Origin: Nonlabens agnitus
Lineage (GTDB): Bacteria > Bacteroidota > Bacteroidia > Flavobacteriales > Flavobacteriaceae
Assembly (NCBI RefSeq): GCF_002994045.1
Contig: NZ_MQUC01000003.1
Coordinates: forward strand, 124,001-188,000
DNA: 64,000 nt
Direction: 5' to 3'
The notes below the pieces were generated by a model. That model was not told the origin of the DNA. It saw nothing but the letters and a program-made list of their open reading frames with translations, and did not search any database. Position numbers and translations under genes: made by a program. This document shows, piece after piece, positions 1,127 to 63,039 of this stretch (its first letter is position 1; every line of letters begins with the position of its first letter).

Positions 1127-1879
1127 ATGTCCTTGAAAATAAGGTCCTTCAAACTTATCCTATTTGTGTCCTTTCAATTAGTCAAAATACATGCCACTGA
1201 GTCCACTAATGAGGATTTGAAAGTTCGCTTTCGCGAAAGCGAACTGCCACAACTCACTACACTATATACAGACCACCAGATGGCCGGTAAAGGTCAAATG
1301 GGAGCAAAGTGGCTTTCAGAACCTTATAAGAACTTGACATTCAGCATATTGATATCTGATTTGCTTAATGGTTTAACAGATTTTGAAATCAATAAATGGG
1401 TTGCCGTTACAGTAGTAGAGTGGTTGCGTCAAAAATTACAAATACAGGCAGTTATAAAATGGCCCAACGACATCCTGTCAGTAAATCATAAGCTAGGAGG
1501 TATTCTAATTGAAAACATCATACAAAACGGAAAGCGCCAGGCGACCATCATTGGTATAGGTTTAAACATCAATCAAACAGATTTTCAGGAGCTGCCTAAG
1601 GCAATTTCCCTAAGACAGATCACCGGTAAATCTTGGGATCTGGAAGATTTGCTTATAGACTTTATGACTTTTCTGGAAAAGAGCATTCAATCACCACAGG
1701 AATCTACCGATAGATATGAATCGCTACTTTTCAAGTTGGGTCGCAAGATGACATTTCAATGTCAAAATGAGGTATTCGAAGCACTAGTTCAAGGTGTAAC
1801 CTCAGATGGTAAATTAAGACTATCCGTCAAAGGAATTGAAACAATCTACGGGCTAAAGGAAATCTCCTGGATCTACTAG
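1127..1879 (+). CDS. birA: Biotin--[acetyl-CoA-carboxylase] ligase
   Basis: Attaches biotin to the biotin carboxyl carrier protein. The protein has 250 residues and only the catalytic and C-terminal domains; the N-terminal DNA-binding domain of E. coli BirA is absent, so it should not act as a repressor. Visible motifs are ESTN (about 25-28), AGKGQMG (about 53-59, the biotinyl-AMP loop, with Lys where many members have Arg), KWPNDI (111-116), GGILIE (124-129) and GIGLNIN (143-149). The first about 17 residues before LVKIHATESTN look non-conserved, so the true start may lie downstream of 1127. A copy of the iterated palindrome encodes RFRES at 34-38. It ends 4 bases inside the convergent SRPBCC gene. 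Confidence 0.9.
   Translation: MSLKIRSFKLILFVSFQLVKIHATESTNEDLKVRFRESELPQLTTLYTDHQMAGKGQMGAKWLSEPYKNLTFSILISDLLNGLTDFEINKWVAVTVVEWLRQKLQIQAVIKWPNDILSVNHKLGGILIENIIQNGKRQATIIGIGLNINQTDFQELPKAISLRQITGKSWDLEDLLIDFMTFLEKSIQSPQESTDRYESLLFKLGRKMTFQCQNEVFEALVQGVTSDGKLRLSVKGIETIYGLKEISWIY
1222..1245. repeat. Iterated palindrome copy 1 (24 bp perfect)
   Basis: Core GCTTTCGCGAAAGC with the inverted symmetry extending to 24 bp, the longest copy in the window. It lies inside birA, read as RFRES. Confidence 0.95.
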
Positions 1880-2262
1880 AGTTTCTCGATACCGTTAGCA
1901 AGTTGCTCCAAGAACTTATTGATAGGTCCTTTGATCATCATTGCCATCATGGCATTAAAATCTCCTTGAAAAAACAGTTGTGCTGCGGCACCTTGAGGGT
2001 CTTCTTCAATGTCTGCCGTTAAAGTAAACGACAATTTATCACCTAGTGAACCCAGTACAACCTTAGAATATGGAGTAGATTCCTTAAGCGTCAATTTAAT
2101 TTCTGGCATGCCTTTAAGGCCAAATAGGAATTTATCTTCTCCTAACAGTTCAAATTTTGCATCATCAGGTAAGAGGTGTTTGAAATTCTCTACTTGGGTC
2201 AGAAAATTATAAAGTTCTTCTGGTGATTTTTGTGTTTTGGCAACACGGCTTTCTAGATTCAT
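1876..2262 (-). CDS. SRPBCC (START/Bet v1-like) family protein
   Basis: A 128-residue soluble protein resembling the SRPBCC / polyketide-cyclase-like fold: an N-terminal strand and helix (SPEELYNFLTQVENFKHLLP), a beta-rich middle and a long C-terminal amphipathic helix containing MMAMMIKGPINKFLEQLANGI. There is no signal peptide. Members bind small hydrophobic ligands, but no specific role can be read here. It lies two bases downstream of pyrE on the same strand, so the two are likely one transcript. Function unknown. Confidence 0.75.
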   Translation of the reverse strand: MNLESRVAKTQKSPEELYNFLTQVENFKHLLPDDAKFELLGEDKFLFGLKGMPEIKLTLKESTPYSKVVLGSLGDKLSFTLTADIEEDPQGAAAQLFFQGDFNAMMAMMIKGPINKFLEQLANGIEKL

Positions 2263-2264
2263 AA

Positions 2265-2915
2265 TTAGGAGTTACTGTTGTTCCAGTTGCTGGGATCTTT
2301 TCTCCAGCTGGTAAGCAATTCAAGAGTCTTACTGTCAAAGTGACCTTGTTTGGTAGCTACTTCTATCAAGTGGTTGTAGTCGCTCAAAACCGTGAGTTCC
2401 ATATGGGCATCTTCAAAGTTTTGAACAGCAAAGTCAAATCCATAAGAGAAAAGAGCGACCATGCCTTTAATTTCTGCACCAGCATCTTTTAAAGCGGTGG
2501 CAGCATTAAGGCTGCTCATTCCGGTACTGATCAGATCCTCGACGATCACTACCTTTTGACCTTTATTAAGTTGCCCTTCTACCTGATTTTGACGACCGTG
2601 TTTTTTTGCTTCTGGCCGTACATAGATAAAGGGTAGGTTCATATAATCTGCTACCAGCATACCTATACCTATGGCGCCCGTAGCGACACCAGCGATCACA
2701 TCTGGTTTGCCGTAAAGGTGTTCAATTTGGGAAGCAAGATGTTCTCTAAGATAATTGCGAACGCTAGGATAGGAGAGCGTAATGCGATTGTCACAGTAGA
2801 TAGGAGATTTCCAACCACTGGCCCATGTGAAAGGTTTTTGTGGTTGTAATTTTATTGCCTTTATTTGCAACAGCAATTCAGCAGTTTTTATCCCAACGTT
2901 TTTATCTCTGACCAT
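2265..2915 (-). CDS. pyrE: Orotate phosphoribosyltransferase
   Basis: Converts orotate and PRPP to orotidine 5'-phosphate in UMP synthesis. From the ATG at 2915 the protein has 216 residues. It shows FTWASGWKSPIYCDNR (29-44), the GVATGAIGIG loop (76-85), YVRPEAKKHG with the flexible-loop lysines (99-107), and the PRPP-binding motif VVIVEDLISTG (122-132). A start at 2948 is possible in frame but would add 11 non-conserved residues and run into the divergent NUDIX gene. A TACATTTG element sits exactly four bases upstream of the 2915 ATG, which favours this start and suggests a leaderless mRNA. Confidence 0.95.
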   Translation of the reverse strand: MVRDKNVGIKTAELLLQIKAIKLQPQKPFTWASGWKSPIYCDNRITLSYPSVRNYLREHLASQIEHLYGKPDVIAGVATGAIGIGMLVADYMNLPFIYVRPEAKKHGRQNQVEGQLNKGQKVVIVEDLISTGMSSLNAATALKDAGAEIKGMVALFSYGFDFAVQNFEDAHMELTVLSDYNHLIEVATKQGHFDSKTLELLTSWRKDPSNWNNSNS

Positions 2916-2919
2916 GCCG

Positions 2920-2927
2920 CAAATGTA
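2920..2927 (-). promoter_or_regulatory. -7 promoter element of pyrE, 4 bases before ATG
   Basis: The minus strand reads TACATTTG, then CGGC, then ATG (2915-2913). It matches TAnnTTTG exactly. It overlaps the start codon of the divergent NUDIX gene at 2923. No good -33 element is seen (a TTTG lies only 12 bases upstream). Confidence 0.5.
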
Positions 2928-3513: not shown

Positions 3514-5267
3514 TTCAATCGATAGATAGGATACGTAAGGTGCGCCGGTTCATAATTGGGAGACCTTTTATGAAGCCATGACAACTGTGCACCATTGCTG
3601 GCGGCAAATCCAGCATCGGTACGCTTGAGTGAGTCAAATTCTCTTTTAAGTTCTTTATTTTCATCCAGCATCTTTTTGGCCGTAGCTTCAAAAACATAGG
3701 TAGAATAACCTTCTTTTTGCTGTAGTATCGTGTCGAAGAAATTCCACTTAAAAAAGGAGTCAGACATCGCGGGCTCGAGCGTTTCAAGAATGTACTTGAT
3801 TCCAGGTTGTGCGGTAGGTATGATGATATCGCTTTCGCGAAAGCGAACTTTACCAACCTTCTCACTAACAACAATATTGCTATGCGGGTAGTGACCTTCA
3901 TAGGCGTTGCTGGCCGTGTCATAACTTTCTATTTTGTAGGTTCCTACTGTAAAGGTGCTGTCCTTTTCCAGAGGTTTCATGATCACATTGTTGAGCCTCA
4001 ATAGATCCAACACTTCCCATTGACCTTGTGGGATCACATAATATTCAGGAACGCGAATGGAGTCTGTCGCCTTGAAATAGTTTTGAAAAGCCGTTTTCTT
4101 GCTAAATGGCTGTTTCCTATCATAAGTCTGTAATTTGTTTCCCGTCAAATCACTTTCCTCGTTGATCGCTTCATAGCCCAAAAAGTTAAGCGTATCGGCT
4201 TTAGTTTGATCCAATTCAAAACTGGAAGCATAAAACGGATTCTCTTGAAAATTCTTGAAGTTTGATTTTCTAACTTCTTTGATTTTTTTGATGTCTCTAC
4301 TGCCTATGGCAATCATTTCTTCCATGATCGCCTTGGTTCCCATCACCCTATCTTTATAGGGTTTCAACATGTGTGTTTCTACCATCATTCCCAGCACGTT
4401 CCACAGTGAAGTGTATCCCGTAGAATATCTGGGATAATCCACAAACTGGCTAAAGCCATCTTCTGGCGATTGATTGAAAACGTTTACATAAGGTGTAATG
4501 GGTAGCGATCTTTTTTCAAGCGCTTTTTCCAGTGCTGGTTGTAGACTGTCATGCAAATAATCGCCTGCAGCGCCGCCCAATCGATTGTGCTGTGTAAAAA
4601 GATGAGTCAAAGTATATTGATAGTCTGCACCATTGCTAACATGGTTATCTATAAAAAGATCTGGTTTGATTTTATGGAATGCAGTGGCAAAGGCTCTGGC
4701 ATTGCGACTGTCTGCCTTTATAAAATCACGATTGAGGTCGTAGTTCCTCGCGTTACCTCTAAAACCATAGGATTCTGGGCCGTTTTGGTTGGTTCTTGTG
4801 GTAGAGTTTCGGTTAAGGGAACCACCTATGTTGTAAATCGCAACAGAGCTAAAGATGACGTTGTCGTCTACTTTTAAGGTGCCTGTGGCAAGGTCTCGCA
4901 TCAACATCATGGTGGCATCAATACCATCGCTTTCTCCTGGATGGATACCATTATTGATCATGATCTTGATACGATCCTCATTAGGAGAATCCCAATCTAT
5001 GCTTTTATTGGAGTAGTGTACGACGTGAAGTGGTTTACCGGCATCTGTATTGCCTACTTCTTCTATCGTGATGGTACTAAAACCTGCGGCCAGCTGCTGG
5101 TAAAAATCAATACATTCTTGATAGGTAGCGGTTTGGTTGCCATTACCTTTTTCAAAAGGAGTAAGATATTCTTTATCTGTGGTTGTAGTTGCTGAATTGG
5201 AGTCATTCGACGTGTCCTTACAACTCAAAACTGCAAAAGCGATGGCAAGTAAATAGGTCTTTCTCAT
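3510..5267 (-). CDS. Secreted lipoprotein M14-family zinc carboxypeptidase
   Basis: A 585-residue M14 metallopeptidase. The N-terminus is a lipoprotein signal with lipobox VLSC and the lipidated Cys at 16, so it acts in the periplasm or at the cell surface. Zinc ligands are visible as H109 and E112 (GIHPGES) and H209 (DNHVSNGADYQ), with the substrate-binding NARNYDLNRDF between them (172-182). The C-terminal 250 residues are a beta-rich extension without a recognised catalytic motif. A palindrome copy encodes RFRES in this extension. Peptide or muropeptide trimming is possible. The 3' end overlaps the convergent NUDIX gene by 4 bases, and the start overlaps the end of coaD by 4 bases. Confidence 0.88.
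   Translation of the reverse strand: MRKTYLLAIAFAVLSCKDTSNDSNSATTTTDKEYLTPFEKGNGNQTATYQECIDFYQQLAAGFSTITIEEVGNTDAGKPLHVVHYSNKSIDWDSPNEDRIKIMINNGIHPGESDGIDATMMLMRDLATGTLKVDDNVIFSSVAIYNIGGSLNRNSTTRTNQNGPESYGFRGNARNYDLNRDFIKADSRNARAFATAFHKIKPDLFIDNHVSNGADYQYTLTHLFTQHNRLGGAAGDYLHDSLQPALEKALEKRSLPITPYVNVFNQSPEDGFSQFVDYPRYSTGYTSLWNVLGMMVETHMLKPYKDRVMGTKAIMEEMIAIGSRDIKKIKEVRKSNFKNFQENPFYASSFELDQTKADTLNFLGYEAINEESDLTGNKLQTYDRKQPFSKKTAFQNYFKATDSIRVPEYYVIPQGQWEVLDLLRLNNVIMKPLEKDSTFTVGTYKIESYDTASNAYEGHYPHSNIVVSEKVGKVRFRESDIIIPTAQPGIKYILETLEPAMSDSFFKWNFFDTILQQKEGYSTYVFEATAKKMLDENKELKREFDSLKRTDAGFAASNGAQLSWLHKRSPNYEPAHLTYPIYRLN
3829..3846. repeat. Iterated palindrome copy 2 (18 bp)
   Basis: Perfect inverted symmetry around TCGCGA, inside the M14 peptidase gene; read on the minus strand as RFRES. 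Confidence 0.95.
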
Positions 5268-5719: not shown

Positions 5720-6696
5720 TTCTTGTGGTTTTTTATGGTGTCTTCAATAATCGCAGTCAGTACAGTACCCAATTCTTTGCCTGCAGCCCTGATTTGTTGT
5801 GGGATGATGCTCTCGCGACTCATTCCAGGATTGGTATTGATTTCTATAAAATGCGGTGTTCCTTCATGGAATATAAAGTCTGCCCTTGCAATTCCCTTTA
5901 ATTTCAAAATGCTATAAATGCGTTTGCTTAATTCTTGAACCGCCAGTGTGGCAGACTCTGTGAGTCTTGCTGGCGTGATTTCCTGGGCTTTACCCATATA
6001 CTTTGCCTCATAGTCAAAAAAGTCATTTTCGCTCACAATTTCAGTTGGAGGTAAAGAATGAACGGTATCACCTATTTGATATATGCCTACAGATACTTCC
6101 ATTCCATCCAGGAATGATTCAATAATGATTTCATCGTCCACTGCAAATGCGGTTTGTAACGCTTTCGCGAAAGCGGAAACCTCATAGACTTTTGAAACGC
6201 CAAAACTGCTACCACTGCGATTTGCCTTTACAAAACAGGGCAGACCTACCACTTCTACAATATGTTCAAAATTAACGTCTTCACCTTCATTAAGATACAA
6301 ATGCCTGCCGGTATGGATGCTCCAGGGCTTCAACACCGCAATACAATCCCTTTTATTAAAAGTAATGGCAGATTGATAGGAGTCGCAAGAAGTTTGCGGC
6401 ATGTCAAGAAGCTCGAGATAAGCCTGGAAAATACCGTCCTCGCCTGGCGTACCATGTATCGTATTGTAAACCGCATCAAAATTGATACGTTCGCTATCTA
6501 CAGTTACCGTAAAGTCATTTTTATCAATGTCATAGGTGTTGTTTTCGGTCTTGAGAAACCATCTATCTTTTTCAATAATGATGGGAAACCCCTTGAATAA
6601 TTTAGGATCTAGATTTTCCATAATGACGTGACCACTCTTGATGGAAATTTCTTTCTCACTGGAATAGCCGCCCATGATGACTGCGATGTTTCTCAT
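5716..6696 (-). CDS. ddl: D-alanine--D-alanine ligase
   Basis: ATP-grasp enzyme that makes the D-Ala-D-Ala dipeptide for peptidoglycan. 326 residues. The N-terminus IAVIMGGYSSEKEISIKSG is the family's substrate loop; KANRSGSSFGVSK is the ATP-binding segment; the C-terminal third has RADFIFHEGTPHFIEINTNPGM with the metal-binding Glu and Asn. A palindrome copy encodes AFAKA in the middle domain, at a surface helix position by inference. It is the first gene of ddl-coaD-M14, with a -7 element at 6725-6732. Confidence 0.96.
   Translation of the reverse strand: MRNIAVIMGGYSSEKEISIKSGHVIMENLDPKLFKGFPIIIEKDRWFLKTENNTYDIDKNDFTVTVDSERINFDAVYNTIHGTPGEDGIFQAYLELLDMPQTSCDSYQSAITFNKRDCIAVLKPWSIHTGRHLYLNEGEDVNFEHIVEVVGLPCFVKANRSGSSFGVSKVYEVSAFAKALQTAFAVDDEIIIESFLDGMEVSVGIYQIGDTVHSLPPTEIVSENDFFDYEAKYMGKAQEITPARLTESATLAVQELSKRIYSILKLKGIARADFIFHEGTPHFIEINTNPGMSRESIIPQQIRAAGKELGTVLTAIIEDTIKNHKK
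6160..6175. repeat. Iterated palindrome copy 3 (16 bp)
   Basis: CGCTTTCGCGAAAGCG inside ddl, read on the minus strand as AFAKA. Confidence 0.95.
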
Positions 6697-6724
6697 AAAG
6701 TACTCTTGAATTGGAGAGGTACAA

Positions 6725-6732
6725 CAAAGTTA
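6725..6732 (-). promoter_or_regulatory. Candidate -7 promoter element of ddl
   Basis: The minus strand reads TAACTTTG, 28 bases before the ddl ATG. The -33 element is not evident. Confidence 0.45.
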
Positions 6733-6767
6733 CGAAAGGTGTCGTTCTTAGTTAGATCATACATTCT

Positions 6768-6775: not shown

Positions 6776-6832
6776 AGACTTATTTTAATCCCTAATTTGA
6801 AGCCTTGTGCTTCAAGATGAAACGCCTGATTT

Positions 6833-10034: not shown

Positions 10035-11338
10035 TACTCATTTACTGTCCTGACCTAACTTCTAGAAAGCAATATATTTTCAAGCACATCTTCCGCAGGA
10101 TGTTGGAAGTGGAGTATGAGATTACTGGAGAGCTCAACGTGTTCGTGGGTCATGAGGGAACTAAATTTTCTTATGGGGACAAACCATTAGGAGAGGAAAC
10201 TTTTATCTGGTCTAACGGTTTATTAAGCGAGCATGGTATTGACGATCATGACATTGACATCATTCAATGGGATGATTTACCGGCATTTTTCCAGGCACCA
10301 GAAAGGAGCGATGTTCCTTTCGATATCTTTGCGGCATCGTTTTACCTTATCACAAGGTATGAGGAATACTTCCCGCAGGTAAAGGATGATTTGGGAAGAT
10401 ACAGTCCGTACGAGAGTATCGCCTACAAGCATGATTTTTTGCGAGAGCCGCTCATAGATCTATGGATTAAAAAATTCTCTCAAGTAGTCTTGAAGCAGGA
10501 TTTTAATTCGCTTTCGCGAAAGCGAACTCCGAAAAGAACTGTCGCCATAGAAGTAGCTACCTTCAATAAATACAGAAAACGTGGACTTATTGTCAATGCG
10601 ACTCTTTTCTCACGTCACGTGCGCAATTTGAGACTCAACCGTGCCTGGAAGCAGATCAAAACCTTACTCAATTTACGCGAAGATCCATATGACAACAGTG
10701 ATGAAATCTTGGTACCTATCAAGAAAATAAGGTTTGATAGGTCTCGAGCTAAAAAAAATCGTGCAGATATGGTTTTCTTCTTCCATTTGGGGAATTACAA
10801 TGATTTCAACACAGGTGTTACCTACAAAAGCAAAAGCTATGTTGAGGCGATCAAACATATTGCTGACTATGTAAAAGTTGGTTTGCGCTTCTCCTCAAAC
10901 ACATCTAGTGATGACGTTTACCAGGAGGAAAAACGCTTTGAGGAACTAGTAAAAAGACCGTTACAGCACACCATGGCGGCAAATTCCAAAATAAGTATGC
11001 CAGGACACTACAAGCTGCTGGTAGATACAAAAACCATGGAGGATTATAGCATGGGTTATGTGGCAGAACCTGGTTTTAGAGCTTCCACAAGCCTGCCTTT
11101 TTATTTCTATGATCTGGATTATGAGGTGCAAACACCTTTGCTTATCCATCCGTATTGTTTGCATTATAACACGATGGCATTGCAAACGCGCAGTGGCCAG
11201 CAATCCATATTGAAAGAAATACAGGAAGTGGTCGACAACGTGCATGGAAACTTTATCGTACAGTTTCATTATGAACATTTTGACCGTGACATCAAGAGTC
11301 ACGCGTTAGAAATATTAGAATCTATAATAGATGAGTAA
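10031..11338 (+). CDS. Polysaccharide deacetylase-like protein (DUF7033 type)
   Basis: 435 residues, no signal peptide. The N-terminal third carries the signature FDIFAASFYLITRYEEY (97-113) followed by DDLGRYSPYESIAY, typical of a Bacteroidota family annotated as polysaccharide deacetylase with an N-terminal DUF7033. The C-terminal half has the expected strand pattern ending in HYEHFD. Where I expect the metal-binding Asp motif, the text is TVAIEVATFNKYRKRG, so catalytic function is doubtful. A palindrome copy encodes LSRKR just before that segment. Translationally coupled to radC (4-base overlap) and to the HAD gene (8-base overlap). Confidence 0.65.
   Translation: MILIYCPDLTSRKQYIFKHIFRRMLEVEYEITGELNVFVGHEGTKFSYGDKPLGEETFIWSNGLLSEHGIDDHDIDIIQWDDLPAFFQAPERSDVPFDIFAASFYLITRYEEYFPQVKDDLGRYSPYESIAYKHDFLREPLIDLWIKKFSQVVLKQDFNSLSRKRTPKRTVAIEVATFNKYRKRGLIVNATLFSRHVRNLRLNRAWKQIKTLLNLREDPYDNSDEILVPIKKIRFDRSRAKKNRADMVFFFHLGNYNDFNTGVTYKSKSYVEAIKHIADYVKVGLRFSSNTSSDDVYQEEKRFEELVKRPLQHTMAANSKISMPGHYKLLVDTKTMEDYSMGYVAEPGFRASTSLPFYFYDLDYEVQTPLLIHPYCLHYNTMALQTRSGQQSILKEIQEVVDNVHGNFIVQFHYEHFDRDIKSHALEILESIIDE
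10507..10526. repeat. Iterated palindrome copy 4 (20 bp)
   Basis: TTCGCTTTCGCGAAAGCGAA inside the deacetylase-like gene, read as LSRKR. Confidence 0.95.
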
Positions 11339-12026
11339 CTTTAAGGGAATCAAGCACGTTTTTTTTGATCTGGATCACACTTTGTGGGATTTTGACCGAA
11401 ACAGCAAAATGGCCTATGCACAGATCTTTGAAGAAGAACAGATAGGCCTGGATCTCGAAAAGTTTATCGAGGTGTACCAGCCTTTGAATTTGCAATATTG
11501 GAAACGCTTTCGCGAAAGCGAGATGTCCAAAGAAGAGTTGAGGTACCGCAGACTCAAGGATACTTTTGATGCCTGTAATTTTAGTGTGGCAGACGATCAC
11601 ATCAACAAAATGGCAGATTTGTATCTGGAGTACTTGCCTAATCATAATCATTTGTTTCCCAATTGTACGCCATTGTTAGACACCCTTAAGGATCAATTTG
11701 AGTTGCACATCATCACCAATGGTTTTGATGAGGTTCAAGCAAGAAAACTGCAGAACTCTGGGCTATCGCCTTATTTTAAATATGTCCTCACAGCGGAAAC
11801 GGCTGGTGTGAAAAAACCAGATCCAGCTATTTTTGAGCGCGCTTTGAAAGATACAGGCGCAACTACGGGCAATAGTGTGATGATAGGAGATAGTCATGAG
11901 GCAGATATTTTAGGCGCTCGCAAGATCGGTTTGCGTACTATCTGGTTCACAGATACCGCTCATCATACCCAAGATGAAATTGTAGTAAGTGATCTTAAGC
12001 AGATTCACTCCTTGTTGCTGCCGTAA
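11331..12026 (+). CDS. HAD-superfamily nucleotidase, YjjG type
   Basis: 231 residues. HAD motif I is FFDLDHTLWD with nucleophile D13 and D15; motif II is in ITNGFDE; the Lys/Asp motifs are in GVKKPDPAIFERAL and MIGDSHEADILGARKIG. This order and length fit YjjG/YfnB-type 5'-nucleotidases that dephosphorylate (noncanonical) pyrimidine nucleotides. A palindrome copy encodes RFRES in the cap domain. The 3' end overlaps the convergent rarA gene by 22 bases. Confidence 0.85.
   Translation: MSNFKGIKHVFFDLDHTLWDFDRNSKMAYAQIFEEEQIGLDLEKFIEVYQPLNLQYWKRFRESEMSKEELRYRRLKDTFDACNFSVADDHINKMADLYLEYLPNHNHLFPNCTPLLDTLKDQFELHIITNGFDEVQARKLQNSGLSPYFKYVLTAETAGVKKPDPAIFERALKDTGATTGNSVMIGDSHEADILGARKIGLRTIWFTDTAHHTQDEIVVSDLKQIHSLLLP
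11505..11520. repeat. Iterated palindrome copy 5 (16 bp)
   Basis: CGCTTTCGCGAAAGCG in the cap domain of the HAD gene, read as RFRES, only about 1 kb from copy 4. Confidence 0.95.
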
Positions 12027-25630: not shown

Positions 25631-25646
25631 CGCTTTCGCGAAAGCG
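25631..25646. repeat. Iterated palindrome copy 7 (16 bp), rpsJ-rplC spacer
   Basis: CGCTTTCGCGAAAGCG between rpsJ and rplC, inside a polycistronic transcript. It is the only copy in the ribosomal cluster and lies outside coding sequence. In RNA it could form a 7-8 bp stem with a tiny loop; no T run follows, so it is not a standard terminator. Confidence 0.95.
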
Positions 25647-41655: not shown

Positions 41656-41677
41656 GTTCGCTTTCGCGAAAGCGAAC
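41656..41677. repeat. Iterated palindrome copy 8 (22 bp), eno-gltA spacer
   Basis: Perfect symmetry over 22 bp around TCGCGA, in the 286-base intergenic region that also holds the eno terminator (41576-41599) and the gltA -7 element (41806-41813). Nothing else was recognised in that region. Confidence 0.95.
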
Positions 41678-43247: not shown

Positions 43248-43261
43248 GCTTTCGCGAAAGC
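43248..43261. repeat. Iterated palindrome copy 9 (14 bp), gltA-hupE spacer
   Basis: GCTTTCGCGAAAGC between the convergent gltA and HupE-like genes; the right side extends as GCGAAA without a left match. Confidence 0.93.
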
Positions 43262-46342: not shown

Positions 46343-47286
46343 TGAAACAAATTACCGATACCATTCTTATGGTGCGTCCAGTGCAGTTCCGTTTGAACGA
46401 AGAGACTGCAGTAAATAACTATTATCAGGATCAGCAGTTCCATAAGGAGATCAAAAATGCTGATGCTAATCAACGAGCGCAGGAAGAGTTTGACGCTTTC
46501 GCGAAAGCGTTACAAGACCACAACATTAACGTTATCATCGTCCAGGATGACAACAAACATGACACTCCAGATTCTGTTTTCCCAAATAACTGGCTGTCTA
46601 CACACGAGAATGGTACCGCAGTTTTGTATCCCATGTTTGCACCCAACCGCAGGCTGGAACGCAGGCCAGAAGTCCTAGAAGCGCTGGAAGAAAATGACTT
46701 TGTAATAGAAGATGTGATGGACTACACCAGCGCTGAAGATGAAGGGATCTTCCTGGAAGGAACCGGCAGCCTTTTATTGGATCGTGCTAATGACGTCGCT
46801 TACTGCAGCATATCGCCACGAGCTGATGAGGATTTATTCATCGAATTTTGTGAAGATTTTGAATATACACCAGTCGTGTTTACGGCCTATCAAAATGTAG
46901 GCGATGCCAGATTACCCATTTATCATACTAATGTGATGATGGCTCTAGGTGAAGAATATGCTGTGATCTGTCTGGATGCTATCGATAGCAAAGCCGAGGT
47001 CAAAAACGTGCTCCACCATTTAAAGCGCACCAATAAGGAAATCATCAATATTACCGAGGCACAAGTTGAAAGCTTTGCTGGAAATATGATACAAGTGAAG
47101 AACAACGAAGGCAAGAAGTTTCTCGTCATGAGCAACCAGGCCTATGAATCACTTACCGAAGCGCAGATTAACAAACTACGGAAGTACAACGAGATCATCC
47201 ATCCAGACATTAAAACTATTGAGACCTTAGGCGGTGGCAGCGTACGCTGTATGATGGCAGAGGTTTTTTTGCCTAGAAAAGTGTAG
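46342..47286 (+). CDS. ctlX: Citrulline utilization hydrolase CtlX-type amidinohydrolase
   Basis: 314 residues. MVRPVQFRLNEETAVNNYYQ at the start, DSVFPNNWLSTHENG, EGTGSLLLDR, IYHTNVMMALG (catalytic His) and the C-terminal GGGSVRCMMAEVF (catalytic Cys303) match the CtlX branch of the GME superfamily. A palindrome copy encodes AFAKA near residue 53. Co-transcribed with the preceding amidinohydrolase. Confidence 0.83.
   Translation: MKQITDTILMVRPVQFRLNEETAVNNYYQDQQFHKEIKNADANQRAQEEFDAFAKALQDHNINVIIVQDDNKHDTPDSVFPNNWLSTHENGTAVLYPMFAPNRRLERRPEVLEALEENDFVIEDVMDYTSAEDEGIFLEGTGSLLLDRANDVAYCSISPRADEDLFIEFCEDFEYTPVVFTAYQNVGDARLPIYHTNVMMALGEEYAVICLDAIDSKAEVKNVLHHLKRTNKEIINITEAQVESFAGNMIQVKNNEGKKFLVMSNQAYESLTEAQINKLRKYNEIIHPDIKTIETLGGGSVRCMMAEVFLPRKV
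46493..46510. repeat. Iterated palindrome copy 10 (18 bp)
   Basis: ACGCTTTCGCGAAAGCGT inside ctlX, read as AFAKA. Confidence 0.95.
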
Positions 47287-48177: not shown

Positions 48178-49605
48178 CTACTTCCCAGTCGCAATATGTT
48201 TGATCATACCCGCAAAAATAAAATAGTGAAAGGGTAGCATACTGTACCAGTACAACCTGCCCCAAAGACCTAGCGGTCTAAAAGTAGCCGTCTGGTGAAC
48301 GACATTATCTTCATCGATCTCAAACTCCAACCAGGCTTCTCCAGGGACACGCATTTCGGCAAAAAGTAATAGGCGTCTTTCTTGACGGTCTGCTACGATC
48401 ACACGCCAGAAGTCTAGGGAATCACCAGAATAGATTTTATCTTGATTGGTACGTCCACGGCGCAGACCAACACCACCAAAAAGCTTGTCCAGATAACCGC
48501 GTATCTTCCATAAGAAGTCGGCATAATAATATCCATTGTTGCCGCCTATCGCCCATATGCGATTGAGCGCCTCTTCAGGTTCTTCTGTCTTGTACGTTTG
48601 AGCATCTCGCAAACAACCAAATCTAGGTACTTGTTTAAACTTGTTGATGTTGTATTTGAACCTACCGCTCACCATACTGTCCTTCCAACTACTGGCAACG
48701 TTGTTTTGCTCGATTTTGGCAAAAGCCATATTCAAGGCTTCTTTATAGGTGTAGAGCTCGATGCCTAGATCTTCCGCAAGTGAGTTTTCTTTGGCTACCA
48801 CTTCGACAGACATGCTGTTTACCAGATTGCGAGCTAATTTGTAAGACGTACTCGTCACAAAGTACAACCAATAGGAACTTAGTTTAGGAGTCATGACCGG
48901 TACCGTCAGGATGGTCAGGTGCAAGTTTCTGTTTTCAGAATATTGCTGCATCATCTGTTTGTAGGTGAGTACATTCTTACCACCTATATCATAGGATTGA
49001 TTATAACTCACCTCGCGACCCAATACACCTATCAGGAAACTCATCACGTTGCGTATGGCAATAGGATGTGTCTTGGTGTTGACCCATTTAGGTGTGATCA
49101 TGATAGGTAGCTTCTCGCATAGATCCCGTATGATCTCAAAGGAAGAACTACCGCTGCCCACGATGATTCCAGCACGTAAAACCGTCGTAGGAATGTCACT
49201 TGCACTAAGAATTTCTTCAACTCGCTTTCGCGAAAGCAAGTGTTTGCTCAAAACATCTTGGTTCACAATTCCAGATAGGTAGATGATCTGTTTGCAACTT
49301 GTGTGAGCCAGCTGTTCCAAAAAATTAGTCGCACTATCGGCTTCCATTTTGTCAAAACTCTCTGTACTACTGGTCATGGAATGGATCAGGTAATACGCGA
49401 CATCAATATCTGCTGGTATGGGATTGACCTCTGGTAAGTCTAGAAAATCGATCTCGATAATCTCGACCTGCGATCGCACCTCATCAGGCACGGATAATCG
49501 ACTCGCACTACGCACGGCACAAACGACCTCGTGGTCTTCTTTGAGTAGTTCGTAGAGTAGGCGCACGCCTATGTAACCGTTTGCTCCTGTAAGTAGTACC
49601 TTCAT
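48178..49605 (-). CDS. SDR-type oxidoreductase with C-terminal DUF2867
   Basis: 475 residues. N-terminal NAD(P)-binding atypical SDR domain with GANGYIG (7-13) and IIYLSGIV, then a DUF2867 domain from about 330 (GYYYADFLWKIRGYLDKLFGG..., SLDFWRVIVADRQERRLLLFAEMRVPGEAWLEFEI). The fusion is widespread but its substrate is unknown. A palindrome copy encodes LSRKR near residue 125. The 166 bases between this gene and the 47322 gene are AT-rich with nothing recognisable. Confidence 0.85.
   Translation of the reverse strand: MKVLLTGANGYIGVRLLYELLKEDHEVVCAVRSASRLSVPDEVRSQVEIIEIDFLDLPEVNPIPADIDVAYYLIHSMTSSTESFDKMEADSATNFLEQLAHTSCKQIIYLSGIVNQDVLSKHLLSRKRVEEILSASDIPTTVLRAGIIVGSGSSSFEIIRDLCEKLPIMITPKWVNTKTHPIAIRNVMSFLIGVLGREVSYNQSYDIGGKNVLTYKQMMQQYSENRNLHLTILTVPVMTPKLSSYWLYFVTSTSYKLARNLVNSMSVEVVAKENSLAEDLGIELYTYKEALNMAFAKIEQNNVASSWKDSMVSGRFKYNINKFKQVPRFGCLRDAQTYKTEEPEEALNRIWAIGGNNGYYYADFLWKIRGYLDKLFGGVGLRRGRTNQDKIYSGDSLDFWRVIVADRQERRLLLFAEMRVPGEAWLEFEIDEDNVVHQTATFRPLGLWGRLYWYSMLPFHYFIFAGMIKHIATGK
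49224..49237. repeat. Iterated palindrome copy 11 (14 bp)
   Basis: GCTTTCGCGAAAGC inside the SDR/DUF2867 gene, read on the minus strand as LSRKR. Confidence 0.93.
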
Positions 49606-49709: not shown

Positions 49710-52700
49710 TTATTCCTTTTTTTCAGATATATTCCTGCGATTGTCTTGAGTGTTGCGATCAATCAATTTGTTGAACGGGTCGATACCTACTTCTACTGGT
49801 TTCTCATCTACCTTGATTTTGAAATCATTATTGATGTCGGTTATCTTCAGTTTTTGAAGGTACAGCACTTTAGGCTGATCGTTTTCCTCGTCATTCTCGC
49901 CAAAGACGCCAACCTCTATGTAATCTGCCAGCGGTAGAGATTCCAGAGCTTTTTTCTTGCCTTCTGGAGTGAATGTGATGCTGTCGTTCATCTCGTTTTT
50001 GTAACGTAGTTTTCCTTTGGCATTACTTCTCGCTTTTATCACTTGTGCATTGATGTCGACCTCATAGGTGCCATCGTGAAGTTGCTTGTAGCTACCATCA
50101 TTTATCTGATTGTCATAGAGCGTAATGGTTTCAAACATGTCCTTAATCAAATATTGCAGGCTGTCTGGTGTCGCTGCTCTTATATCATCGACAAATTCTG
50201 TAGCGGTAGGATAAGGAGCTCCTTTGAATTGGTACTTTTCTGCAAAACGCTTTGCCACGTTATTAAAGTTCTTCTCACCTATGTAATCACTAATTGCGTA
50301 AAGAATAAGCGATCCCTTTTGATAGTGAATGTATTGCTGGTTCTCGTTGTACATCAAAGGATTCTCACCTATGCTTTCTGTTGTTCTTCCTAGTAGATAG
50401 CCGTCCATGGCATCTTTTAAGAAATTACGCATTTGGTATTTTCCATTGGTCTTTTCAAGAACCTTGAGCGAACTATATTCTGACATACTTTCTGATAGGA
50501 GTGTAGCACCTTTTGCATTAGCTCCTATCACTTGATGCGCCCACCACTGGTGTGCAAGCTCATGGGCCGTGATGCTAAATGGATAATCCACATTGTCATT
50601 GGACTCATCATCTACATCTGCAATAAATCCTATCGCTTCGCTAAATGGGATCGTATTGGGAAACGCCTGTGCAAAACCACCACCAGTTCTAGGGAACTCG
50701 ATAATGCGAGCTTGTCTATGCTGGTAAGGCGTATAATTATCATTATAATAATCCAGTCCTTTCTTGAGACCTTTCATCATCCTGTCGATGTTGTAGTCAT
50801 GCTGTGGATGATAATAAATCTCAAGCGCTACACCTTTATGGTTGTCCTTGAGCACTGCATAGCGACCACTCAAGAATGCATAGAAATTGAGCATTTTGGA
50901 ATCCATCTTATAGTGGAAGTATCTGCGGCCATCTTCTTCCCATTCCTTGATCAAATAACCAGGAGCTATTGCGATCTGGTCAGGTGATGTGCTTACGGTC
51001 GCCTCAAAATCAATCCAATGAGCGTTGGGACCTAAATAGTTACGATCTCTAGCGCCAGGAGCTTCTGGAGCTGGTAGACGATCTTTAGGCGGTAGATTGT
51101 ACTTTTCACGTACTTGAGTATTGCGTATTTCAAATTGCTCGTTGTAACCTATCGCGGGAAAAATCCCGTTATTGATGAATGTACCATTATCCAAAACCGG
51201 TGAATTGTTCTTGAGTAAGGTATTGGGTTCATTTTCTGTGGTAAATGAAAATTGAAGTGTATCACCTGGCATGAGTGGCGATTCAAATTGATACATGCGA
51301 TAATCATAATCCTCGTTGTCATAAACAATTTCGCTCTTGCGATCCATTTCAATTGTTGTGGGACGATCAGGATAATTCACGTGCAGGGTATCAATGGGAT
51401 ACTGCGTCTGATTGACCATGGTATACGTAGCGCCAGCCTTGAAATCTCTGGTTTCTGGATAGATATCCATATAAGTGTTGATGGCGACCGTAATAGGTTG
51501 CGGCACGCCAGCAAACTTGCCCAACTCTTTTTCAAAGTTGACCTGTAGCTCTTCACGTTCCTTGCCTGTCATTTGCTCATCTAGGACATTGTTGAGGTAC
51601 CACAAATAGCCACCTATACCTAGAAATACGATTAATGAAACTGCGATGGTTGCAGTAGTGGTTGTTGTGGTTCTCGCTTTCGCGAAAGCGAATCTCTCCT
51701 TCATACTGCTTCCCATGCCACGACGGTAAAACAAGACGGCCAGTGTAAATAAGGCTATTCCCAAAGCAATCCAATAGATGCGATACGTGTAGAAACTAGG
51801 TAGTCCAACGCCATAACCGTTCATGTCGCTAGGCGATGGAGAACTGCCACCTTGATTAAAGATGAATTGACCTTGCTCAACGCCTATCGCACTCATCAAT
51901 AATGGTACGCCTACCGCAAAAACTAATAAGGTCAATAATCCTAGCCATTTGTTTTTGATCAATGTGTGAACCAATAGGGTAAGTAGGATCCATGGGATGA
52001 AATTCCAGGAATTGATTACGTATAAGTCAAAAAGGTATAGCGGTATCTCAAAATCAAAGAAGCCGTTGTAACCTTGGATGATCATACCGCTTATCATGAC
52101 TATTAGCAATAAGGTCAATGTCATGAGGAATAACGCGATAAACTTGGATATCAGGATGGTCCAGTTTTGTGTAGGTGTCGCATCAATCATTTGCTTAAGA
52201 TGTGACGAGTTGGCTCTATCCATAATCAAACCACCATAAAGAAAAATCAACAAGTAGATGAATATGGTGAAGAGTCCCGTGACAATACTGAGCATTAACC
52301 AGGTTTTAGGCAAGATACCTGTGCCATAAATCTCTCCAGACACGAGCATGGTCACCAGAGAAAATGCAAACGCGATGACGACAATAATGATAAAGGGCCA
52401 ACCGGTCACGATATATTTCAAGTCTGATTTTGCCAGAACCCAAGCTGTTTTGAGCTGTCCTATAAAGGTAAAGTCTGCAGTGACTTTAGGCATTTTAATG
52501 GACTGAATGGTGCCAAAATTGCGCTTGATGGCGCGTTGGGCTTTTTTAGGCTTTAGCCTTAGATTGGTTGGATTTTGCGAAAAATTAAAACCAAATAGAA
52601 CCGCAAAGAAAATGATGAGTGAGATACCCAACCATAACAAACGATTATACAACAAAGTGCCCTCTACTGGGATGAGTTGATTGCTCTGCTCTTCTGGAGA

Positions 52701-54462: not shown

Positions 54463-56139
54463 GTGATTGTATTGCTGCTGTATTTTATTTTTTTAATTGG
54501 CGTCACCGTACCCTGCGGATTGCTCATTCAAAAAATCATGAGAATCCAGGCGTTATCACTGCTCGATCTATTCTGGTTAGGTATGGCCCTAATTACCGTC
54601 ATGGCTGGCGTCTGGTGCTTGTTTCTGCCTTTGGATTTCAAGTTTGTGATCGTATTGATAATTTGTGTTATTCTCGCCATATGGGTGTGTCACGACCTGA
54701 TTAAATTACACTGCTCCAGCGCGAAGCATTTTATATCAACGATTGCAACTAAGAACTTGGTTTGGGTCGTGATATGCACGGTATTGGTATTGGCAGCTGG
54801 AACGCTCTCTGGTTATGTACTCGATAACGACAGTTATTATTTGCAAACCATTCAATGGTTGGATAATTATGGATTGGTTCCTGGAATTGCGAACTGGCAT
54901 CTGTTTCTGGCGCAACAAAGCGGTTTTCATATTTTGGAGTCGGCCTTAAATCTGGAATTTTTAGACCTAGAATTTAATGATCTTGGACTTTTCATGACCC
55001 TAGCGATGATTTTGTGGTCCACACTTCCCAGCAGCATTGAGGAAACAGTCTTTCAAAAGGCCTTTAGAAACTTGCTTGCTATGACATTCCCATTAATACT
55101 CTTATTGGGAACTGCTCCGTCGCCAGACGTTCTCGTCATATTGTTGTCTTATTATGTGATATATAAATTTTTGTTTGGAGCTAGCGAGTGGACCAATGTG
55201 TTTATGATTAGTGTGCTAACTGCTATGGCTTGCTATTTCAAGATAACATCTGTTTTACTCGGTGTTTTTCCATTGCTCATGATATTTAGGCTTAAAGAGG
55301 ATCGATGGCGATCTACGTTGCATTTCTGTGGATTAGGTCTCCTATTTGGCGGATTGTTTATGGCAAAAAATATCCTTGCGAGTGCCTATCCCTTATTTCC
55401 GTTGACGTCTGTTTCTCTGGATGTCGACTGGCTGGTGCCTGTGGAAATGATTCGATTTTATAAGGATGCGACAATCGCGCAGGCTTATGGAATTTCCTTT
55501 ACAGAATTGAATCAGCTGAATGGATGGCAGTGCTTTTTGCTCTGGATCCAGCAAGCTGGAATGGAAGGTTTGATGAATAAAGGGATTTTTCTACTGGTCA
55601 TCTCTAGCGTATGTGGAGCCTTTTTTTACAGGCATAAGCCCAAAATCGTTACCGTGCTTTTGGTATTTGTGTCGTTTGCTTTGATCATGGCGTTAAGCTC
55701 GCCGCAAGCGCGATTTTTTCTTCCTTTTTTGATTCCCGCAACCATGGTGTTGTTGCTTTCGACCTTCAGCATGGCAAGGAACTATAGTTTGGGAATTGCA
55801 AGGTTCGCGGTGATTTCTGGTGTCTGTATTTTGTTGCTGCCATCCATCATTCGGCTATCAACAGATAATGAGCGCATGAAAAATGTACCTGAGTTTGAAC
55901 ACAGCAACTTGCTGTTTCCATTGCAGAGAAGTAGGTATAGTGACGCTTTCGCGAAAGCGAACATCAACAACATCCAGTACAACGATCCCACAGGTGATGA
56001 TTTCTTTTATGGGACCTATGACGTGCCCTTGCCGGCAGCCCAGAAAGAATATCTGGATTATTTCAAAACCTATTATCAGGTCTCGCCAGAGTATCGTGGC
56101 GATACACCAGTAGAAGGTTTTAGAGCGGTGAAAAACTAG
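54463..56139 (+). CDS. Polytopic inner-membrane protein, possibly GT-C-like
   Basis: 558 residues from a GTG start, with about 12 hydrophobic segments spread over residues 1-450 and a soluble C-terminal tail. The first periplasmic loop after TM4 has LDNDSYYLQTIQWLDNYGLVPG, which resembles the Asp-containing loop of lipid-linked-sugar glycosyltransferases and of an uncharacterised Bacteroidota/Leptospira membrane family (LIC_10190 type, from memory). A palindrome copy encodes AFAKA in the tail. It diverges from the ABC gene, and its end overlaps the convergent 56136 gene by 4 bases. Function unknown. Confidence 0.65.
   Translation: MIVLLLYFIFLIGVTVPCGLLIQKIMRIQALSLLDLFWLGMALITVMAGVWCLFLPLDFKFVIVLIICVILAIWVCHDLIKLHCSSAKHFISTIATKNLVWVVICTVLVLAAGTLSGYVLDNDSYYLQTIQWLDNYGLVPGIANWHLFLAQQSGFHILESALNLEFLDLEFNDLGLFMTLAMILWSTLPSSIEETVFQKAFRNLLAMTFPLILLLGTAPSPDVLVILLSYYVIYKFLFGASEWTNVFMISVLTAMACYFKITSVLLGVFPLLMIFRLKEDRWRSTLHFCGLGLLFGGLFMAKNILASAYPLFPLTSVSLDVDWLVPVEMIRFYKDATIAQAYGISFTELNQLNGWQCFLLWIQQAGMEGLMNKGIFLLVISSVCGAFFYRHKPKIVTVLLVFVSFALIMALSSPQARFFLPFLIPATMVLLLSTFSMARNYSLGIARFAVISGVCILLLPSIIRLSTDNERMKNVPEFEHSNLLFPLQRSRYSDAFAKANINNIQYNDPTGDDFFYGTYDVPLPAAQKEYLDYFKTYYQVSPEYRGDTPVEGFRAVKN
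55944..55959. repeat. Iterated palindrome copy 13 (16 bp)
   Basis: CGCTTTCGCGAAAGCG in the soluble tail of the polytopic membrane protein, read as AFAKA. Confidence 0.95.
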
Positions 56140-58425: not shown

Positions 58426-58481
58426 GGCATCGATAGGCTTTTGGTTTTACTAGGTTATATTCACAATTCAATTTTCTGAAT

Positions 58482-59704: not shown

Positions 59705-59742
59705 TTACTTGATTACTTTTACGATAACCTAATCTAGAACCT

Positions 59743-60843
59743 ATCGACTTTCACATTCCATATCTGGATATCAAAGCACTACAGCGTCGTTTTTCCCAAC
59801 GAGATAGCGAGGCCCTGCAAGAATTGCAGGATCTGGGTATTTACATTGGTGGTGAGCCTGTTACAAGGTTTGAAATGGATTATGCCCAATATTGTGGCAC
59901 TCAATTTTGTATAGGAACCGGTAACGGACTCGATGCACTGACGATCATTCTACGTGCCGAAAAGCAGTTGGGAAGACTACCTGAAAATGCTCGTATACTC
60001 GTGCCAGCGCATACCTACATCGCCACTTTTTTAAGCATTACAGAGGCTGGCATGCATCCTATTCCCGTGGATGTCCACCATCTATTGATCACAAAGGATG
60101 TGGTAGAGAAACACCTTGAAAATGTGGATGCGATAGTGGCCGTAGATATTTATGGAAAACTGGTGGATGATGAGGTGTACGCTTTCGCGAAAGCGAACCA
60201 CAAACCCATCTATACAGACGCGGCACAATCCCATGGAGCTAAAACCAGCAACGGTGATCGATCTGGAAGTCGTGGTATGGCCAGCGCATTTTCATTTTAT
60301 CCCACAAAGAATCTGGGCGCTCTAGGAGATGCCGGTGCGATCACGACCAATGACGAAGAACTTGCCGTAATGGCACGTCGTATGGCTAATTATGGTAGGA
60401 CCTCACGGTTTGTCAATGATATGAAAGGTGTTAACAGCAGGCTGGATCCCTTGCAGGCGTCATTTCTCAATAACAGGTTGCTGTTTCTGGATAACGACAA
60501 TAAAAAACGGAAAAAGATCGCGCAGGTTTACATGGAGCAGATTGAGAATCCCAAAGTCAAACTACCTCCAGCTGATTTTCTAGAGTCTAATTCCATTCAT
60601 GTGTTTCCAATTTTTCTGGAAGAAAGAGATCAATTTGTGGCCTATCTGGAAGATCGCGGCATTCAAACCAATAGGCATTATGCCATACCACCGCACCAGC
60701 AACTGGCATTTAAGGAATTCAATGACATGAGCTTCCCACAAACGGAATATCTTCATGATAGTGAGGTAAGTTTGCCCTGCCATCCTTTACTGGAAGATCA
60801 TGAAGTCCAGGAAATTGTGATTGCCATAAACGAGTATTCATGA
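59743..60843 (+). CDS. DegT/DnrJ/EryC1/StrS-family sugar aminotransferase, start codon unclear
   Basis: PLP-dependent aminotransferase that makes amino sugars on nucleotide carriers. From 59743 the frame reads IDFHIPYLDIKALQRRF..., the family's conserved N-terminus. The first possible ordinary start is TTG 59824, which would delete about 27 conserved residues; between the in-frame stop at 59725 and this region there is no ATG, GTG or TTG. The PLP lysine is in SFYPTKNLGALGDAGAI, and GTGNGLDAL and TYIATFLSI are typical. The SFYPxKNLGALGD form is closest to 3-keto sugar aminotransferases (QdtB/FdtB type). A palindrome copy encodes AFAKA. Overlaps the flippase gene by 4 bases. Confidence 0.82.
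   Translation: MDFHIPYLDIKALQRRFSQRDSEALQELQDLGIYIGGEPVTRFEMDYAQYCGTQFCIGTGNGLDALTIILRAEKQLGRLPENARILVPAHTYIATFLSITEAGMHPIPVDVHHLLITKDVVEKHLENVDAIVAVDIYGKLVDDEVYAFAKANHKPIYTDAAQSHGAKTSNGDRSGSRGMASAFSFYPTKNLGALGDAGAITTNDEELAVMARRMANYGRTSRFVNDMKGVNSRLDPLQASFLNNRLLFLDNDNKKRKKIAQVYMEQIENPKVKLPPADFLESNSIHVFPIFLEERDQFVAYLEDRGIQTNRHYAIPPHQQLAFKEFNDMSFPQTEYLHDSEVSLPCHPLLEDHEVQEIVIAINEYS
60180..60195. repeat. Iterated palindrome copy 14 (16 bp)
   Basis: CGCTTTCGCGAAAGCG inside the sugar aminotransferase gene, read as AFAKA. Confidence 0.95.
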
Positions 60844-62129: not shown

Positions 62130-62512
62130 CGACTGCGAACGCTATCTGTATCGATGCGTCGAATCTCGCGTCCCAGACTATCGGTTTTTCTTATCTGGAT
62201 ATTATCCTGTGGTTTAGTCACTACCGCCACATAGGTATGTGTGGTATCTGCGTCCTTTTTCGGGATAAGCGTCAGTAGATCTTTGGAGGATTTTGCAGGA
62301 ATGCTGGTAATGATGGGACGATCTGCCCGTCGACGGAAACCATCGCTCTCCACTTTAAAGAACAGGCTCAAAGGCTTGTCTGTTACATTAGTGGCTACAT
62401 AAACAATTTTCTTATGTTCTTTTCTGACGCTAATCTCGATGCCTTCCGGTTCTTGACTTGCAGTATGAAACAGAAAGATGGGAATCCATAAGAGGTACTT
62501 CAACATGGTCAT
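62126..62512 (-). CDS. Small exported hypothetical protein
   Basis: 128 residues. N-terminal hydrophobic signal (MLKYLLWIPIFLFHTAS) and a beta-sandwich-like remainder (KKIVYVATNVTDKPLSLFFKVESDGF...). Ends with a charged tail. No family recognised. It overlaps the upstream gene by 4 bases and the convergent flippase gene by 4 bases. Confidence 0.6.
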   Translation of the reverse strand: MTMLKYLLWIPIFLFHTASQEPEGIEISVRKEHKKIVYVATNVTDKPLSLFFKVESDGFRRRADRPIITSIPAKSSKDLLTLIPKKDADTTHTYVAVVTKPQDNIQIRKTDSLGREIRRIDTDSVRSR

Positions 62513-62919
62513 GCTTTTTTATTGAATAATTCTTTGGCTTTCTCTCGTTGTGTGGCAATGAAGTCTTCGCCAAATGCGTCCGTCAATTCTTTGTTCCTTT
62601 TATTCATGTAAGCCAGTTCAGGTCCCATCAAATTACAACCGTAGAACTCATAGCCTACATTGTAATTCTGGATAAGATATTGTCTAAAAAAGACTTCAAA
62701 TTTACTAAGCTGTCCCGTCAAACTTCCCAAGGTAACATATATCAGACCAGAACTGGTGCCTTGCTGGCCTATGGGTTGTAAAACCGAAGCATTGGAATTA
62801 GCGACAAGAACTTCTAGATTTTCAGGTTGTTGCTCTGACTTTTTACCGGTGGTGATGACGACTTGTGCCACGCAAAGCTGTGCCGTAAGGAAGAGAAGAA
62901 GTAGTAAAGAATATTTCAT
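62509..62919 (-). CDS. Small exported hypothetical protein
   Basis: 136 residues with a cleavable signal peptide (MKYSLLLLLFLTAQLCVAQ). The mature part has one Cys (GCNLMGPELAY) and a C-terminal basic helix. No family recognised. First gene of a two-gene operon with the 62126 gene; both products should be periplasmic or outer-membrane associated. Confidence 0.6.
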   Translation of the reverse strand: MKYSLLLLLFLTAQLCVAQVVITTGKKSEQQPENLEVLVANSNASVLQPIGQQGTSSGLIYVTLGSLTGQLSKFEVFFRQYLIQNYNVGYEFYGCNLMGPELAYMNKRNKELTDAFGEDFIATQREKAKELFNKKA

Positions 62920-62965
62920 AGTGTTTCTTATCGATGGAAGTAAGGCTTATCCTGTTTTGACCAGC

Positions 62966-62973
62966 TATCTTTG
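62966..62973 (+). promoter_or_regulatory. Candidate -7 promoter element upstream of the exonuclease gene
   Basis: TATCTTTG, 126 bases before the ATG at 63100. The -33 element is not evident. If used, the leader would contain palindrome copy 15. Confidence 0.35.
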
Positions 62974-63019
62974 TAAAAGTATAAAATTGAGGGTAAATAA
63001 GTTACTGGCTTTAGTTAAG

Positions 63020-63039
63020 TTCGCTTTCGCGAAAGCGAA
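63020..63039. repeat. Iterated palindrome copy 15 (20 bp), upstream of the exonuclease gene
   Basis: TTCGCTTTCGCGAAAGCGAA in the 180-base divergent region between the exported-protein gene and the exonuclease gene. Confidence 0.95.

Follow-up and report, generated by a model that had tools for sequence, protein, structure and literature searches.

Among described systems, the closest to the sequence studied here are the DNA uptake sequences (DUS) of Neisseria and the uptake signal sequences (USS) of Haemophilus and other Pasteurellaceae. In the accessible parts of the published accounts, the Neisseria sequences have a spacing that matches conversion fragments, are stringently conserved in permissive locations, and changed by steps beyond point mutation (PMC2397512), and few of the Haemophilus sequences lie in new segments, in rRNA genes, or in constrained genes (PMC7811141). 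The accessible text of the literature consulted places uptake sequences in two proteobacterial families only, the Neisseriaceae and the Pasteurellaceae. Among the entries listed for the open-access literature, no account of the present motif, or of a palindromic uptake sequence in Bacteroidota, was found. Palindromes such as parS, NBS, SBS, and matS occur in few to tens of copies and are biased toward ori or ter. In turn, HIP1 and the alternate highly iterated palindromes (HIPs) of cyanobacteria are described, in the part of the source available, as lying in both genes and spacers (PMC4390886). Here, we describe a palindrome, GCTTTCGCGAAAGC, that is repeated 15 times in a 64,000-nucleotide stretch of the Nonlabens agnitus genome (contig NZ_MQUC01000003.1, positions 124,001 to 188,000; hereafter the window). 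In a few genera, the palindrome forms a real and strong DNA signal, the function of which is unproven. On balance, its sequence characteristics lean toward a role in self-recognition during DNA uptake by Nonlabens and Dokdonia, which would be naturally competent; with modest confidence, we hold such an uptake sequence to be the best single reading, ahead of a site for a chromosome-organizing protein.

All 15 perfect copies that an earlier note had reported are present in the window where it had placed them, and 100 dinucleotide shuffles contained none. The observation was right and understated, as the 14-mer occurs 762 times (237 per Mb) in the genome of the window (G000; 3,215,882 bases), and its backwards-read control does not occur. 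When one mismatch was allowed, the total rose to 851, that is, 89 one-mismatch copies versus 762 perfect copies, and the backwards control gave a single match. In 464 kb of this genome (the window and 20 chunks), there were 111 perfect, 10 one-mismatch, and 9 two-mismatch copies, compared with 0, 0.10, and 1.05, respectively, for shuffled palindromes in the same sequence. Such genome-wide over-representation with few one-mismatch copies is a trait of uptake sequences.

The abundance of the palindrome was restricted to a few lineages. The 14-mer was present in 288–857 copies in each of the 23 Nonlabens genomes searched (22 besides G000), and none was present in the 16 genomes searched from other genera of the order. 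When named genomes were searched with the 20-mer TTCGCTTTCGCGAAAGCGAA, Nonlabens and Dokdonia made up most of the matches listed. Dokdonia sinensis carried 857 copies and four uncultured Dokdonia carried 570–878, and strays were observed in Flagellimonas oceanensis (2), Euzebyella marina (1), and one gammaproteobacterial metagenome-assembled genome (1). Across 397 Flavobacteriaceae genomes, at least 400 copies were found in six (four Nonlabens, D. sinensis, and G226, a genome of one further genus, with 408), 1–19 copies in 74 of the other 391, and none in the remainder; across 395 genomes of the class, none outside Flavobacteriaceae had more than four copies. In a 12-protein tree of 19 genomes (FastTree with midpoint root, some nodes weak), Nonlabens was not sister to the group of Dokdonia and G226.

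The copies were found to avoid one another at short distances. For 94 consecutive sites on one G000 contig, the median gap was 3,671 bp, and there were only 5 gaps below 1 kb versus 18.2 expected, and 6 below 1.5 kb versus 26.0 expected (0 of 20,000 simulations as low). Similar avoidance was observed in D. sinensis (100 sites; median gap, 3,562 bp; 2 gaps below 1 kb vs. 20.3 expected; coefficient of variation, 0.65) and in G226 (81 sites; median gap, 6,140 bp; 0 gaps below 1 kb vs. 9.9 expected; coefficient of variation, 0.69). Thus, nonrandom spacing with avoidance of short gaps, a further trait of uptake sequences, is found in three lineages. Counts per chunk had also appeared to be overly even (23 G000 chunks of 20 kb; variance/mean 0.62), but this reached only P 0.08, and the ratio falls to 0.11 only once four chunks with fewer than three sites are removed; therefore, the spacing claim rests on the short-gap tests. 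Of 20 sampled 20-kb chunks along the G000 chromosome, 17 held 4–6 copies (the exceptions were L159 with none, and L140 and L158 with two each), and no density trend was observed along the contig, on which ori was not mapped. These counts disfavor an ori- or ter-limited form of the segregation site suggested earlier. With respect to genes, 62 of the 107 scorable G000 copies lay in open reading frames (ORFs; phases 40/11/11) and 45 lay outside them, compared with 12% noncoding DNA (ORFs were called crudely, by length, and four chunk-edge copies were dropped). In Dokdonia, 25 of 48 copies lay outside ORFs (three were dropped), compared with 16% noncoding DNA, and such permissive location was therefore seen in two of the three lineages.

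The conserved pattern continues around the core. In G000, position 8 from the center is C/G in 95% of copies and positions 9–10 are T/A in approximately 70%; on the 5' side, C is scarce (1–9%) at positions 10–19 and T is favored at positions 17–20, and these symmetric C-poor, T-rich flanks extend approximately 20 bp from the center. C was likewise avoided in the Dokdonia flanks and T recurred at positions 10 and 17, but position 9 favored A (57%) rather than T, and the preferences in G226 were weaker than those in Nonlabens and Dokdonia. Position 9 might thus distinguish dialects, with T in Nonlabens, A in Dokdonia, and no preference in G226. The one-mismatch copies of G226 were mostly transversions (10/12). 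In G000, the flanks of the two half-sites varied almost independently, with pairing no higher than chance. Such independence is expected when two protein half-sites read double-stranded DNA, but not when the flanks form a stem. Pairing at position 11 was above chance in an 18-genome sample (47 vs. 34.1, sd 4.4), and pairing at position 9 was 145 versus 113.7 in named loci, which were preselected for the 20-mer.

We addressed the origin of the copies by comparing a 20-kb region of the window with 16 other Nonlabens and four outgroups, in which conserved ORFs allowed four of the seven sites to be traced. These sites were located at 46495..46508 in a DDAH-type gene (reading AFAKA; core kept in 8 of 16 Nonlabens orthologs), 49224..49237 in an epimerase/DUF2867 gene (LSRK; 13 of 15), 51676..51689 in the gene for a 1223-aa ABC2-membrane/peptidase M1 protein (AFAKA; 10 of 13), and 55945..55958 in a 558-aa ORF without Pfam match (AFAKA; 3 of 4). 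The core was kept in 34 of 48 Nonlabens orthologs at these sites, compared with 1.5–6.6% for ordinary 14-mers. It was kept in 28 of 42 when pairs with at least 90% identity were left out, and in 22 of 35 for pairs below 82% identity, where ordinary 14-mers of the same genes were identical in 1.5%. The 14 core-less orthologs differed by one base (4) or by 3–9 bases (10), and the core-less sites aligned without gaps. Thus, the alignment of orthologs demonstrated that the copies arose by substitution, rather than insertion, at the four genic sites followed. The use of all codon phases, the enrichment outside ORFs, and the substitution origin uphold the proposal in the earlier note that the signal lies at the DNA level, independent of the encoded residues. 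Conservation of the residues without the motif, which that note had named as evidence against its reading, was observed only in part and at a single site, 49224, where SRK was kept in motif-free genera but with other codons. What that note said of function stands only in part: among the functions it listed, an uptake sequence fits best and is not proven.

Compared with DUS and USS, as far as the accessible accounts describe them, the palindrome shares hundreds of near-perfect copies, nonrandom spacing, conserved positions, and permissive locations; it is approximately 3–4 times sparser. The split of core-less orthologs into those differing by one base and those differing by at least three likewise resembles the steps larger than one mutation in the available description of Neisseria DUS. 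From these patterns we infer uptake itself, together with its receptor and drive. A dimeric or two-site receptor of the uptake apparatus would recognize a symmetric core of approximately GCTTTCGCGAAAGC inside TTCGCTTTCGCGAAAGCGAA, and recognition would include the C-poor, T-rich flanks to approximately 20 bp on each side. Fragments bearing a copy would be preferentially taken up and recombined, and this bias in transformation would both spread and repair the copies. A single copy per fragment would suffice, and a second within approximately 1–2 kb would add nothing; this uselessness of a second nearby copy would lead to the even spacing (median of approximately 3.6 kb in Nonlabens and Dokdonia). 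A toy drive model with fragments of 4–6 kb yielded similar spacing, which we offer as an illustration and not as evidence.

The candidate receptor would be a family-wide pair formed by an outer-membrane receptor and a DUF5689 lipoprotein. In the accessible text, two Riemerella species (Flavobacteriaceae) are competent with a reported preference for their own DNA, and a search for words of up to 10 bases yielded A/T-rich words only (PMC7965970). The available part of another report describes an unusual uptake apparatus in R. anatipestifer; according to a transposon screen, it requires a CarboxypepD-domain protein, predicted to lie in the outer membrane, and the DUF5689 protein next to it, in addition to ComEC, DprA, ComF, and RecA (PMC8459023). 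TonB mutants were also affected, one of them probably via iron, according to the text available (PMC8383284). The Nonlabens genome carries the same domain pair, in which a CarboxypepD_reg protein (957 aa) adjoins a DUF5689/choice-of-anchor J lipoprotein (477 aa); the two systems are likened by domains, and the NCBIfam match of the lipoprotein is below cut-off. Unlike in Riemerella, whose transformation apparatus is without known sequence specificity, two related genes (one blast cluster) flank the pair in the Nonlabens locus (L332:1909-8533), and the one scanned encodes an EEP-family nuclease. AFAKA, which is also what one reading frame of the palindrome yields, is encoded at the start of the other flanking gene. 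DUF5689 was found in 30 of 30 genomes searched, the receptor/DUF5689 pair in 20 of 20 fetched loci, from motif carriers or not, and ComEC in 23 of 23 genomes searched. The host therefore encodes a competence apparatus, as hosts of uptake sequences do, which is not diagnostic: competence genes make uptake possible, not specific. In the receptor tree, G226 and G364 shared a common long branch. In the Nonlabens genome G022, the DUF5689 protein fell with Dokdonia and other genera (weak support at the adjacent nodes, 0.45–0.47) and the receptor grouped with Nonlabens, and it is possible that the lipoprotein alone was swapped.

Several observations weigh against an uptake function. In the literature searched, there was no report of natural transformation or DNA uptake in Dokdonia. 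The Nonlabens motif, unlike the DUS and USS with which it was compared in their accessible descriptions, is a palindrome. Long empty stretches kept the overall gap variation in G000 from falling below random (coefficient of variation 0.92, P 0.25), and the avoidance is limited to short gaps. No clear enrichment outside ORFs was observed in G226 (4 of 33 copies vs. 8.5% noncoding DNA). ComEC is widespread, occurring in 10 of 14 control genomes, and DUF5689 and its neighbor are also found in motif-free genera; in trees of the lipoprotein (30 genomes) and of the neighboring receptor (20 genomes), the motif carriers were not grouped. Moreover, a search for dialects, as over-represented words, in samples from 20 related genera (23 genomes, 10–57 kb each) yielded no other palindrome; in samples of this size, a sparser, degenerate, or nonpalindromic dialect could escape, and oriented words were judged by eye only. 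Two candidates, AGCTTTTAA in G364 and CCAGGATATC in G196, first looked promising but were rejected, as their contexts were not palindromic.

Phage sequences provided a further point on this side. Low-GC IMG/VR contigs with several copies exist among the 14-mer matches listed, and a 16-mer scan of IMG/VR matched 41 stretches. The 37.4-kb contig IMGVR_UViG_3300040781_000495 (L242, L299, L424, and L427) showed seven copies in the 31.2 kb seen, which comprised four stretches without a common 40-mer. This is a host-like density, and the contig encodes terminase, portal, tail sheath, and baseplate hub proteins. Further motif-bearing contigs encode a head maturation protease and an endolysin, or tail proteins. 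Such phage contigs weaken the simple rule that foreign DNA is motif-free. On the other side, two isolated Nonlabens phages (one genus, 35 kb each) had no copy, even with two mismatches, and this absence, along with that from a 29.6-kb gap that holds defense genes (described below), would fit an uptake sequence. A 32-mer BLAST search against plasmids and phages returned short matches in unrelated organisms only. L218 and L231, which likewise belong to phages or proviruses, also hold several copies.

If the palindrome is indeed a Bacteroidota uptake sequence, it would represent an independent origin of self-DNA recognition that is tied to a different machine. A broader proposal, which is tentative and on present evidence rather doubtful, is that these Bacteroidota have their own sequence-specific uptake, in which a non-pilus, TonB-type outer-membrane machine would read a long palindrome via two equivalent half-sites. 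The tag would be shared across genera (Nonlabens and Dokdonia), which would form a cross-genus gene-exchange community, and some phages of these hosts would have acquired it. The upkeep of such a motif would then be directly testable, since strong carriers, the weaker G226, and the genus g159 with probable relics occur in one family. Whatever the function, several hundred mutually avoiding palindromes of 14–20 bp point to a strong, unexplained DNA-binding system.

The leading alternative, unlikely in our view but deserving attention, is that the palindrome is the site of a cytoplasmic chromosome-organizing protein (nucleoid-associated, Noc/SlmA/MatP-like, or a condensin loader), serving as an anchor every ~4 kb. 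A symmetric double-stranded site with near-independent half-sites in G000 would suit such a protein, as would the short-gap avoidance, the site conservation, and the copies in some phage genomes. As a long symmetric site of protein type, the palindrome resembles parS, NBS, SBS, and matS, but it differs from them in its 762 copies along the whole chromosome. The lack of a density trend in the 20 sampled chunks (ori not mapped) and the limitation of abundance to a few genera argue against an organizer, and no candidate protein turned up, no systematic search having been made.

An improbable alternative is a Chi-like or self-marker site that keeps a recombination nuclease from attacking the chromosome and the DNA of adapted phages. 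The palindrome is frequent in the chromosome, absent from a defense stretch and from the two isolated phages, and present in other phages, all of which such a site would share. The defense stretch, L159 (G000 C4:298001-318000), is the first 20 kb of a 29.6-kb gap between sites and was picked because it falls in that gap; it carries a Wadjet-type operon (JetD, SMC-like, DUF4194, and DUF3375), an ATPase of the AAA/STAND type that matches Mrr weakly, and an OmpH-like gene. Known Chi sites, however, are short, nonpalindromic, and oriented, unlike this 14-mer palindrome without orientation, and a substitute palindrome was lacking in the samples of the 20 related genera.

Still less probable is a HIP1-type palindrome that owes its origin or upkeep to mismatch repair together with a DNA methyltransferase, as in the Elhai model. 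The iteration of the palindrome in coding and noncoding DNA recalls HIP1, as the accessible text presents it (PMC4390886), but the Nonlabens motif is longer, sparser (237 per Mb vs. 1000–2000 per Mb for HIPs), and without an enriched hexamer core. Outside the 14-mer, TCGCGA was observed 88 times versus 85.8 expected, and CTTTCGCGAAAG 3 times versus 3.0 expected; a mild excess was seen for TTCGCGAA (9 vs. 3.4), which is above expectation but rare, and for the half-site CGCTTTCG (20 vs. 10.1), and near-miss copies add to both. The near-expected count of TCGCGA shows that the motif is not driven by a short methylase core, and it disfavors the methylation site suggested by the earlier note. To our knowledge, no methylase site is as long as 14–20 bp. 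Finally, a dispersing mini-element or a terminator-like RNA hairpin, for which the perfect palindrome and the 45 of 107 copies outside ORFs might speak, can be set aside as very improbable, since the gap-free substitutions at core-less homologous sites refute insertion at the four genic sites tested, insertion without target immunity would not avoid short gaps, the G000 flanks do not covary as a stem, and convergent gene pairs account for only 12 of the 43 intergenic G000 copies.

In other genera, copies were often clustered. We fetched clusters from 12 genomes of 11 genera, most of them chosen for their clustered look, and 42 of their 44 copies lay within ORFs. Half of the copies (22/44) fell in four gene types, assigned by reading of the peptides, whose versions in G372 (the only genome scanned) were an outer-membrane efflux protein, an RND pump, a FUR-family regulator, and a P-type ATPase. 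These gene types are carried by 8 of the 12 fetched genomes and not by G385, G129, G212, and G386. The same 933-bp interval between copies occurs in G114, G123, G137, G251, and G196. This constant interval had suggested a parS centromere cluster, which was dropped because both copies lie within one 405-aa gene of the metal-efflux type cluster, whose homolog in G372 is the outer-membrane efflux protein. We read the efflux-gene copies as probable horizontal transfers out of motif-rich lineages, resembling a donor watermark, and the motif could accordingly be used as a watermark of gene flow out of Nonlabens and Dokdonia. The spacing in G196 and G251 was identical (933, 10754, and 3991 bp), which points to recent transfer between genera. 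In several Flavobacteriaceae genera, the motif sits at conserved positions of the metal-efflux cluster (L120–L135; contig C15 of G180: L383 and L385).

The genus g159 sits with Dokdonia in the tree (support 0.57 only), and its two genomes had 9 and 6 perfect and 20 and 17 one-mismatch copies, across many contigs. Transitions made up 14 of 17 mismatches in G364 (listing read by eye). Most g159 copies are probably decayed relics; at least 3 of the 29 copies in G180 (contig C15) are not relics, as they lie inside the transferred efflux cluster with 2,446- and 933-bp intervals, and the others might alternatively reflect transfer from Dokdonia.

Within the window, the perfectly complementary arms were 7–12 bases long, in agreement with the palindrome length of 14–24 bp proposed earlier, and the ORF table bore out that 11 of the 15 copies are intragenic, reading AFAKA (5), RFRES (3), or LSRK (3). 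In addition to the four genic copies followed in orthologs, RFRES is read at 1227..1240 in a biotin/lipoate ligase-family gene, at 3831..3844 in a 585-aa ORF (3510-5267, minus strand), and at 11506..11519 in a HAD hydrolase gene; LSRK is read at 10510..10523 in a DUF7033 gene and at 21733..21746 in a 549-aa ORF (20429-22078, minus strand); and AFAKA is read at 6161..6174 in a D-Ala-D-Ala ligase-type gene and at 60181..60194 in a DegT/DnrJ aminotransferase gene. Eight further TCGCGA occur in the window, none as part of the 14-mer. The motif-free stretch at 25.6–41.6 kb is real, and SecY, RpoA, and enolase were identified among its genes. The four copies taken as intergenic from the ORF table are at 25632..25645, at 41660..41673 downstream of the enolase gene, at 43248..43261, and at 63023..63036, the last of which is overlapped only by a weak 104-aa ORF.

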